Source of the DNA: Pseudanabaena sp. lw0831
GTDB taxonomy: Bacteria > Cyanobacteriota > Cyanobacteriia > Pseudanabaenales > Pseudanabaenaceae
NCBI RefSeq assembly: GCF_016584665.1
Contig: NZ_BBJB01000016.1
Coordinates: forward strand, 62,001-126,000
Length of the DNA: 64,000 nt
Direction of reading: 5' to 3'
The notes under the pieces are model-generated. The model made no database searches. It had not been told where the DNA came from and worked only from the letters and a program-made list of their open reading frames with translations. Within the stretch, counting starts at the first letter, position 1. Every line of letters starts with the position of its first letter. The translations under genes were made by a program, and so were the position numbers. This document shows positions 6,653 through 47,863 of this stretch, in pieces.

Positions 6653-6713
6653 CGAACCAATAGACTCTATGAAAGTGTTGCAAAGCAACACTTTCATAGA
6701 GTCTATTGGTTCG
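6653..6713 (-). terminator. 29-bp perfect hairpin with AAA loop
   Basis: Arms 6653-6681 and 6685-6713 are perfect over 29 bp, closing on AAA (core GTTGCAAAGCAAC). This is the longest uninterrupted triloop stem in the window. It starts 15 nt after the stop of the 6729-7214 gene and precedes the MlaE gene on the same strand. Confidence 0.88.
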
Positions 6714-12370: not shown

Positions 12371-12419
12371 CGACTAGCTACAGGCTGCGATTATACAGCG
12401 CCTTGCGCTGACTTAAAAC

Positions 12420-12472
12420 CCATCAGAACTTTCAAAAGTACTGCGAAGCAGTACTTTTGAAAGTTCTGATGG
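12420..12472 (-). terminator. 25-bp perfect hairpin, GAA loop
   Basis: Arms 12420-12444 and 12448-12472 are perfect and close on GAA (core CTGCGAAGCAG). It starts 10 nt after the stop of the chorismate lyase gene and precedes coaD on the same strand. Confidence 0.88.
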
Positions 12473-12481
12473 ATTTGATTT

Positions 12482-21200: not shown

Positions 21201-21247
21201 CCCAAAAGATGAGAGGCGGCGCTTTGCGCCGCCTCTCATCTTTTGGG
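21201..21247. terminator. 22-bp perfect hairpin, TTT loop, between rpsN and ppsA
   Basis: Arms 21201-21222 and 21226-21247 are perfect. The core is GCGCTTTGCGC. It ends 12 nt beyond the ppsA stop and serves ppsA. Its arms share CCCAAAAGATGAGAGG with the hairpin at 17171-17211. Confidence 0.88.
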
Positions 21248-31040: not shown

Positions 31041-32246
31041 ATGACACGAATTTGTATCCTTGGTGGTGGTTTTGGCGGTTTGTATACTGCGCTCAATCTC
31101 TCGCGTCTACCTTGGGCGGTCATGCCTGAAATAATCCTGATCGATAAAAGCGATCGCTTCTTATTTACGCCATTTCTCTACGAACTAGTCACGGGAGAAA
31201 TGCAAGAGTGGGAGATTGCGCCAACATTTGCCGAATTACTCGCTGATACTGGTATTCAGTTTCTCCAAGGTCTAATCACCAATATCGATTTTAAGTCAAA
31301 ACAAGTAGAAGTAAATATTGGACAAAGGACAACATTGGCATACGATCGCCTTGTTTTAGCGATCGGTGGTGAAACGCCGATGAATCTTGTCGATGGGGCT
31401 TTAGAATATGCAATTCCATTTCGTAATCTGCATGACTTCTATCGCCTTAACAGCAAATTGGAACTATTAGAAGCATCTAATCGTGACAAGATTCGAGTCT
31501 GTATCGCGGGTGGTGGCAGCAGCGGCGTAGAACTCGCCTGCAAAATTGCCGATCGCCTCAAGGATCGCGGTCGAGTCCGCCTAGTCGATCGCAATGATAA
31601 AATTTTAAGCAACTCTACAGATGCAAATCGCAAAATCGCTGAACTTGCCCTCTCAAAACGTGGGGTCTGGACTGATCTAAATACCAGAGTCTCACAAGTA
31701 AATGATGGTGAAGTTACGCTTGACTACACCGATGGAAGTGATACCTTACCCGTTGACATCATTTTATGGACAGTGGGTAGCACCTTTTCTAAAATGCTCC
31801 AAAATCTCCCAGTTGAACATAGTCGGCAAGGGGCGATCGCCACGGAGACAACCTTACAAGTTAAGGGATATGCCGATGTATTTGCGATCGGTGACTTAGC
31901 AAGTTGTTTTGACTCTAATTCTAGTCTTGTCCCCGCTACCGCTCAGGTCGCCTTCCAGCAGTCCCAGTATTGTGCTTGGAATGTTTGGGCTAGCCTTAAT
32001 CAAAAAACACTGGTTCCCTTTAGTTATATTCCCCTCGGCGAATTTATTAGCTTAGGGATTGACGGAGCAACTGCTTCGATTTTTGGTAAGTTCAGTATTG
32101 ATGGACTGCCAGCCCATGTGATGAGGCGGCTAGCCTATTTACTAAGGATGCCAACTTCTCAGCATCAATGGAAGATAGGAACACACTGGTTGACTAAACC
32201 TTTGATTGAGATGTTCAGAAAATCTGTAAATCACCCAAACCCGTAA
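31041..32246 (+). CDS. Type-2 NADH dehydrogenase family oxidoreductase, NdbB-like
   Basis: An FAD- and NAD(P)H-binding oxidoreductase of about 401 residues that reduces a membrane quinone without pumping protons. The FAD motif ICILGGGFGGLYTAL is at the N-terminus, the second dinucleotide fold VCIAGGGSSGVELACKIADRL is central, and VFAIGDLAS closes the FAD site. The short length matches NdbB, which acts as a demethylphylloquinone reductase in Synechocystis; NdbA/NdbC are longer. I start at ATG 31041; TTG 31029 is an alternative. The last four residues (HPNP) and the TAA lie in the arm of a repeated hairpin element. Confidence 0.82.
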   Translation: MTRICILGGGFGGLYTALNLSRLPWAVMPEIILIDKSDRFLFTPFLYELVTGEMQEWEIAPTFAELLADTGIQFLQGLITNIDFKSKQVEVNIGQRTTLAYDRLVLAIGGETPMNLVDGALEYAIPFRNLHDFYRLNSKLELLEASNRDKIRVCIAGGGSSGVELACKIADRLKDRGRVRLVDRNDKILSNSTDANRKIAELALSKRGVWTDLNTRVSQVNDGEVTLDYTDGSDTLPVDIILWTVGSTFSKMLQNLPVEHSRQGAIATETTLQVKGYADVFAIGDLASCFDSNSSLVPATAQVAFQQSQYCAWNVWASLNQKTLVPFSYIPLGEFISLGIDGATASIFGKFSIDGLPAHVMRRLAYLLRMPTSQHQWKIGTHWLTKPLIEMFRKSVNHPNP

Positions 32247-32286
32247 AGTTGTGCCCCTGCAGGGCACAACTTTACGGGTTTGGGTG
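32232..32286 (+). terminator. 25-bp hairpin (family A element) containing the ndbB-like stop codon
   Basis: Perfect arms 32232-32256 and 32262-32286 surround a 5-nt loop. The left arm includes the codons CAC CCA AAC CCG TAA, the end of the upstream gene. It matches the hairpin at 11787-11837 in pattern and much of its sequence. Confidence 0.88.
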
Positions 32287-41516: not shown

Positions 41517-41534
41517 GCAAAAGAAAGCTTAAGA

Positions 41535-41585
41535 ATCCAAAAAGACAAATCGCCCGCTACGCGGGCGATTTGTCTTTTTGGATTT
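41535..41585 (+). terminator. 24-bp perfect hairpin, TAC loop, after ycf51
   Basis: Arms 41535-41558 and 41562-41585 close on TAC (core CCGCTACGCGG, the complement of the 30947 core). It starts 18 nt after the ycf51 stop. Confidence 0.88.
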
Positions 41586-47543: not shown

Positions 47544-47863
47544 CTCGATCTACTCCGTCTAAATTTCACGTAATCAAGCTGAATTATATAGCAAATCTCA
47601 GTAGTGGAAATTCATGAATTATCCTTTACCTCTTATTTCCATGCGTGATTGCAGCAATTCTCGTTATGAAACCGATTTTGGTGTTTCCAGCGCCATTGGC
47701 GCTGGAAACACCAAAATCGGTTTTTTGAAAGCCCGCTGTAGGCGGGCTTTCAAAAAACCGATTTTTATAATGAGAATTGCTGGCGTGATTGTCAAGAATT
47801 TGTGATCGCACTGCAACTCGGTAATAGACTAGTTAATAACTGTAGAGATAAGGGAGTTAGGTT
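47544..47863. other. Gap with a nested palindrome
   Basis: The 320-nt gap has no credible gene. Frames of about 60 codons on both strands are by-products of the palindrome. Its centre (47652-47781) is a long hairpin with a second hairpin inserted in one arm, described separately. Confidence 0.6.
47652..47781. repeat. Nested hairpins: one palindrome inserted into the arm of another
   Basis: Outer arms 47652-47668 and 47766-47781 match with few changes and continue into hairpin B (47713-47736 with 47742-47765, loop of 5). A 44-nt block (47669-47712) splits the left arm. That block, with the next 11 nt, forms hairpin A (47669-47694 with 47698-47723, 26 bp, ATT loop). Without the block, one ~40-bp hairpin would remain. 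Confidence 0.85.

Follow-up and report, generated by a model that had tools for sequence, protein, structure and literature searches.

In the window, the 64,000-nt stretch of the Pseudanabaena sp. lw0831 genome that we analysed, an 87-aa gene conserved in the genus is followed by a gap that varies in most of the loci compared, often with other hairpins; different hairpins occupy it in many species (L082, L075, L089, L091 and L092 among others), as if they turned over quickly. In the window's genome this gap also holds a Uma2-like gene, for which there was no NCBIfam match, and to the right of the 87-aa gene lies a MITE copy of 131 nt, 47652–47782, flanked by a perfect 9-bp target duplication (Table 1). 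Within its outer stem two hairpins sit side by side and have their middle 11 nt in common; the arms of the outer stem are 97 nt apart, those of the inner hairpins 3 nt.

The odd double hairpin that a preliminary description had noticed here is real: the fold of a 161-nt stretch reached −98.4 kcal/mol, whereas shuffles averaged −40.0 ± 3.9 and none of 200 did as well (z = −14.9), and an inverted-repeat listing of the window recovered both arm pairs independently (I4 and I10). That description regarded 47669–47712 as a 44-nt insert in the arm of a host hairpin; the block lies within hairpin 1. Together with the next 11 nt it does form a 26-bp hairpin, perfect and with a 3-nt loop, whose outer 11 bp, AAACCGATTTT, recur inverted as claimed and directly as well. 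Removing the block leaves 87 nt and indeed restores a single hairpin, though one of 42 pairs, three of them non-Watson–Crick, rather than of about 40 bp with two base changes. The extent given, 47652–47781, stops one base short of the unit, and the flanking 9-bp repeat went unmentioned.

Table 1 Features of the MITE copy in the window
Feature	Position	Strand	Remarks
Target-site duplication, left copy, GCGTGATTG	47643–47651	.	Repeat comparison; family-wide flank test
Target-site duplication, right copy, GCGTGATTG	47783–47791	.	Repeat comparison
Left terminal inverted repeat (outer stem), CAGCAATTCTCGTTATG	47652–47668	+	Family consensus is A at 47663
Segment a, AAACCGATTTT, first of three homologous 11-nt segments	47669–47679	+	
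Hairpin 1, 26-bp perfect arms, loop ATT at 47695–47697	47669–47723	+	
Segment a′, inverted copy of a	47713–47723	+	Able to pair with a (hairpin 1) or a″ (hairpin 2)
Hairpin 2, 25-bp arms, one uncorrected T-G pair beside loop GTA at 47738–47740	47713–47765	+	
Segment a″, direct copy of a	47755–47765	+	Direct repeat a…a″ bounds the 86 nt missing from 45-nt copies
Right terminal inverted repeat	47766–47782	+	Near-exact inverted copy of CAGCAATTCTCGTTATG

A dispersed family in Pseudanabaena

Other copies, whose absence the preliminary description would have counted against itself, are abundant. The 161-nt query matched 78 pieces in the window's own 5.26-Mb genome, and matches to the family were present in 20 of 23 Pseudanabaena genomes (own included) and in none of 15 from other genera, so that among the 38 genomes searched the family is confined to Pseudanabaena. 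An exact pattern scan of one genome per species across 84,980 species returned 62 stretches, whose titles name Pseudanabaena, Phormidium tenue FACHB-1050 and the uncultured cyanobacterium PMM_0003.

Among 214 unique places, the element is exactly 131 nt long in 126 and 45 nt long in 34, the latter mostly fetched on purpose. A 45-nt copy is the full element minus the 86 nt that the direct repeats a and a″ enclose, and 21 of the 34 are flanked by a target duplication agreeing at 8 or 9 of 9 bases. Their segment a occurs in several versions (CCGA, CCAA, CTGA and ACGA), all known among full copies, although the matching full copy was not always among those sampled from the same genome; judged from these sequences, such diversity is compatible with a repeated origin of the short form. 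Hairpin 1 is the sole inner hairpin in L205 (89 nt), in L256 (71 nt; duplication agreeing at 9 of 9) and in L112 (83 nt). L112 shares its insertion site with the full, 133-nt L245, which implies no order of the two forms. In one side case, L058, a 45-nt copy with its own 9-base duplication lies inside the arm of an unrelated hairpin.

These distributions bear on the idea that hairpin 1 was recently inserted into a host hairpin at the window locus and copied its flank. The nested-repeat arithmetic on which that idea was founded is exact; the same architecture, however, recurs at unrelated sites across the genus, the whole 131-nt unit being the usual form of a genus-wide family. No clean copy of hairpin 2 alone, the supposed state before insertion, was found among the 214 places (L223 has hairpin 2 and a degenerate hairpin 1), a sample biased against such copies because some places were fetched by a pattern, that of the 84,980-species scan, which required the start of hairpin 1; a pattern search aimed at them was uninformative, since its pattern also fits full copies read from the other end. 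We find a recent insertion here scarcely credible, and the locus was wrongly taken for a snapshot of hairpin birth, although either hairpin may have entered by an ancestral insertion when the family was formed. The broader suggestion about how such hairpins arise and lengthen holds in spirit, given the 34 places with no inner hairpin and the copies with hairpin 1 only.

Target duplications, empty sites and a partner insertion sequence

The 9-bp flanks of 141 elements (138 unique; a few odd-length or truncated ones included) have a mean identity of 0.82, as against 0.28 for shuffled partners, and agree at 8 or more of 9 bases in 94 of the 141; in 8- and 10-bp frames the identity is 0.35 and 0.34. 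Empty sites with a single copy of the 9 bp were found for other members of the family (L170 against L271 and L287; L157 against L278 and L280). Among 24 orthologous loci compared, none preserved both flanks of the window copy and so none offered an empty site for it, because the right, Uma2-like side matched the window's own copy alone; part of the Uma2-like gene has a 92% match elsewhere in the genome of G021. In L076 (G002) a family copy stands elsewhere in the same gap, which is without a copy in L071 and L084.

The terminal inverted repeats of the family measure 16–17 bp. A terminal-repeat search of five genomes found that in G020 and G004 the same 16-nt ends occur in pairs with a spacing of about 1.4 kb, where they bound an insertion sequence of 1,417–1,418 bp and 1,428 bp, respectively. 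An exact 9-base duplication flanks three of the four G020 copies read and is absent from the fourth and from the G004 copy. The insertion sequence carries one transposase-like frame of 435 aa, whose best profile scores (PF01609, DDE_Tnp_1, 15.3 bits; PF13808, DDE_Tnp_1_assoc, 16.5 bits) fall below the curated cut-offs of 23 and 32.3, as does its score of 15.5 with the NCBIfam IS701 model (cut-off 170). Candidate families for the partner are IS4, ISAs1 and ISNCY. One of its plasmid relatives is annotated as ISNCY family, the others as transposase or hypothetical; its structure model is poor (mean pLDDT 46.8), and a profile search of solved structures gave one match (E = 0.93).

Terminal inverted repeats and 9-bp target duplications, dispersal, a length of 131 nt that is too short for a transposase, ends in common with an insertion sequence and, for other copies, empty sites together identify the window unit as a copy of a MITE. 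From these shared ends, we infer that the transposase of the partner insertion sequence moved the MITE in trans; the partner gene is the likely, not the proven, mobilising enzyme. It is present at full length in 3 of 26 genus genomes (ten copies in G020, one each in G004 and G038), and a protein search of these 26 found no match to it in the window's own genome, which seems no longer to encode the mobilising enzyme.

REP and REPIN sequences are also dispersed palindromes; they are not known to make a target duplication and are moved by a Y1 (RAYT) transposase. We rejected this identity for the present family, which differs in its 9-bp target duplication and in its terminal repeats of a 1.4-kb insertion sequence.

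We also observed a second MITE, of 141 nt (L098, L099, L100 and L111), with the same terminal repeats and an unrelated interior; in L100 two of its copies adjoin, with the same target bases copied at their borders.

Paired changes in the inner hairpins

All evidence on the evolution of the element comes from comparing copies; no mutation was observed happening. Paired changes were counted in 131-nt copies only. Near relatives among 99 places of this length (98 distinct sequences) were linked by a minimum spanning tree of 97 edges, 61 of which join copies with at most six differences and are here called short; tree and loop work used 126 places (125 distinct), and the comparison of shared sites and tally of paired variants used 125. 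A change carried by all three segments enters the count once per hairpin.

On short edges the inner hairpins together show 45 paired changes where about 0.7 were expected. Hairpin 1 has 26 paired (Watson–Crick to Watson–Crick) and 31 single changes (null mean 0.37) and hairpin 2 has 19 paired, 33 single and 2 in which both bases changed without pairing (null mean 0.37), whereas the outer stem has none paired, 86 single and 3 both changed but unpaired (null 0.67). Over all 97 edges the paired counts are 66 (null 2.1), 45 (1.2) and 2 (1.8), respectively; disjoint nearest pairs show the same contrast between inner hairpins and outer stem, and tree parsimony on the 125 sequences gives 71, 56 and 2. 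Transversions make up 28 of the 45 short-edge paired changes and about half (69 of 129) of those on the parsimony tree. With the outer arms 97 nt apart and the inner ones 3 nt, this contrast is in keeping with a process that depends on a short spacer. The outer stem could also be under constraint from transposase binding; that it can vary is nevertheless clear from its many single changes.

Segments a, a′ and a″ changed together in 11 of the 65 spanning-tree position-edges with any change there, and 12 times on the parsimony tree. Where the three disagree, the odd one out is a′ in 2 cells, a″ in 15 and a in 37; position 18 holds 19 of these 37, mostly through a joint change of a′ and a″. In some lineages, then, the three segments change in step, so the sharing of AAACCGATTTT, which had been ascribed to copying of the flank upon insertion, does reflect copying between arms. 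As a pattern, the hunch that one arm is copied from another proves right, though not by way of an insertion here.

Paired changes of this sort are commonly taken as a mark of functional structure, and here they occur in an apparent transposon remnant. Selection for an RNA structure, in a transcribed element acting as terminator, stabiliser or regulator in which compensatory mutations were selected, would accord with the very stable RNA fold and with MITE transcripts being described as stable stem-loops (PMC10969869). RNA pairing, however, would favour G-U on one strand, and mismatches in the inner hairpins are G-T in 41 cells and A-C in 38 (21 types each), so that no selection on RNA is visible; in the outer stem G-T exceeds A-C (120 versus 41), where, however, G-T is already the consensus at pair 17/115. 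Further against it, the 28 short-edge transversions have no route via G-U, the loops flip (see below), and at gathering thresholds Rfam had no match at the element, a tRNA being the only match in the window. We therefore regard RNA selection as very improbable. The lack of wobble preference, the many transversions and the flipped loops counsel caution against reading covariation alone as function.

Selection for the DNA palindrome itself, because a transposase or host protein needs a cruciform or hairpin for mobility or for survival of the copy, would leave no wobble asymmetry and would suit the perfect pairing of hairpin 1 in 62 and of hairpin 2 in 67 of the 125 copies. It would leave the loop flips unexplained, and the autonomous element and the 141-nt relatives have the same ends without these hairpins; the 21 hairpin-less 45-nt copies with 8–9 of 9 duplicated bases speak the same way, although their hairpins may have been lost after insertion. 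We hold this reading to be improbable.

Loop inversion at shared insertion sites

The reverse complement of a copy's loop also occurs in the family for 120 of the 125 copies in hairpin 1 and 122 in hairpin 2; as controls, the plain reversal occurs for 5 and 66, and the complement for 34 and 56. In place of base-by-base loop parsimony, each loop was then scored as a single state on a tree from which loops had been left out. Of the hairpin 1 loop changes, about 26 of 66 are exact inversions, the commonest class; of those in hairpin 2, about 18 of 65 are, second to inversion with one substitution (23). On the parsimony tree with base-by-base loops, only two branches join an exact loop inversion to a pair change in the same hairpin.

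The closest comparisons are eight sites, with matching flanks, at which two genomes share a 131-nt copy. L012/L064 and L112/L245 differ in length and were set apart; L120/L219 and L160/L219 bring in a third genome at a site that is in the count; L131 (a self-overlap) and L173/L189 (both in G017) were left out; L151/L164 was retained despite a match of only 44 nt in the right flank. Between these close relatives a loop is more often inverted than not: among 16 loops, exact inversion is seen in 10, inversion with one substitution in 2 and no change in 4, and a plain single substitution in none. The arms differ by 9 paired and 8 single changes in hairpin 1, by 2 paired, 14 single and 2 both-changed but unpaired in hairpin 2, and by 1 paired, 18 single and 1 both-changed but unpaired in the outer stem. 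The single changes in both inner hairpins mean that correction is far from complete and pairing not universal, and their predominance in hairpin 2 speaks against fast correction of that hairpin at these sites; at L163/L292 and L151/L164 there is no paired change at all.

At six of the eight sites, hairpin 1 combines an exactly inverted loop with a compensated pair. At L134/L154, whose flanks are 98.3 and 99.7% identical, the sole differences are one compensated transversion in hairpin 1 and the flipping of both loops. At two sites, L130/L172 and the unequal L012/L064 (131 and 134 nt), one change is borne by all three segments; in the latter the hairpin 1 loop is unchanged and that of hairpin 2 inverted.

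Template switching as the probable process

We think it probable that replication template switching rewrites the short-loop hairpins of this MITE and that its 45-bp copies are deletion derivatives. Repeated rewriting of the inner hairpins after insertion is evident as a pattern from the copies, and template switching is the mechanism that we infer for it. At a hairpin the DNA polymerase would switch template, either on the same strand or across to the other. Mutations in one arm would thereby be copied onto its partner and sometimes onto every copy of the shared 11-nt segment, and the loop of 3 nt would flip to its reverse complement. The 45-nt copies would have lost the 86 nt between a and a″ most simply by slippage across the hairpins. 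Both footprints of template switching are present: arm homogenisation in inverted repeats with short spacers, weak in hairpin 2 at the shared sites, and exact inversion of the loop. On balance we favour the view that the inner hairpins are nearly perfect mainly through mutation rather than selection, by switching between arms, three-way across the hairpins, with frequent loop flips.

The main rival is ectopic gene conversion between copies, by which a hairpin would be overwritten from another copy with matched arms and its loop in either orientation. Tens of similar copies in several genomes could serve it, palindromic arms would let a donor align either way round, and 37 of the 60 distinct paired variants recur in more than one copy, so conversion could spread them. 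The remaining 23, however, are single-copy, among them the pair in L154 (1 of 125 sequences), private status being provisional because not all copies were sampled; every paired variant still had to arise once; and the loop flips at L134/L154 were accompanied by no change in the terminal repeats or at other arm sites. Conversion as the source of the pattern is, in our judgement, unlikely.

If template switching is the process, tens of parallel natural replicates per genome in several genomes, with the terminal stem as control, would make its rates and tract lengths measurable in a bacterium. The family would be a multi-copy natural system for such measurements, in which the copies, once compared, preserve the traces of a process that is seldom easy to observe.

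Related systems

The element is of a known kind, with an unusual anatomy and an informative mode of evolving. Bacterial MITEs derived from insertion sequences include Nezha in cyanobacteria and QMITE2 in Coxiella, which the present family resembles in being short and multi-copy, with insertion-sequence terminal repeats, a target duplication and a stable stem-loop; relative to these elements as described, it differs in having two 3-nt-loop hairpins that share an 11-nt segment three ways, as well as paired change, loop flipping and hairpin-less 45-nt copies (PMC10969869). Among the matches listed in a literature search limited largely to openly accessible papers, there was no report of the family or of template switching in bacterial MITEs.

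The mutational pattern has counterparts elsewhere. In Escherichia coli, imperfect palindromes become more perfect once the polymerase takes the nascent strand for its template, and the present hairpins are like these quasipalindrome hotspots, perfected by a replication template switch; the E. coli work, as described, concerns reporter constructs and single-gene hotspots, with no mobile family (PMC7202029). In yeast, template switching homogenises arms and exactly inverts spacers at inverted repeats, as seen here; the inversions are reversible, and ten spacer inversions are reported. The yeast cases as reported lie in eukaryotic coding genes, with arm conversion and inversion together once and transitions exceeding transversions, unlike this bacterial multi-copy element with its outer stem as an internal control (PMC8604942). 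In rRNA genes, too, template switches make compensatory changes in one event and invert loops; the combination of compensatory change and loop inversion, the clearest footprint and the strongest support sought there, is described as extremely rare and was found six times, as against hairpin 1 at six of eight shared sites here, with no visible RNA selection (PMC8794818).

Small inversions in chloroplast DNA are likewise flips of short-hairpin loops, at single-copy plastid sites. SbcCD cuts DNA hairpins, and we considered its absence as a reason for their survival; this was rejected because SbcD matches are present in all 26 genus genomes. A second SbcD of E. coli length (frames of 389–416 aa) occurs in 25 of the 26, and in the window's genome it is followed by an SbcC gene (G000 C78, L269:4415–8597). 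In nine genomes from other genera of the taxonomic family no full-length second SbcD exceeded the cut-off, G045 having two partial pieces above it. A link between SbcCD and a hairpin-rich genome is worth a look.

The window has 23 inverted-repeat pairs in all, about twenty of them besides this element (for example 6653–6713, 12416–12476, 21201–21247, 32232–32286 and 41534–41584). Several belong to other dispersed families; that at 21201–21247 matches 29 fetched loci.
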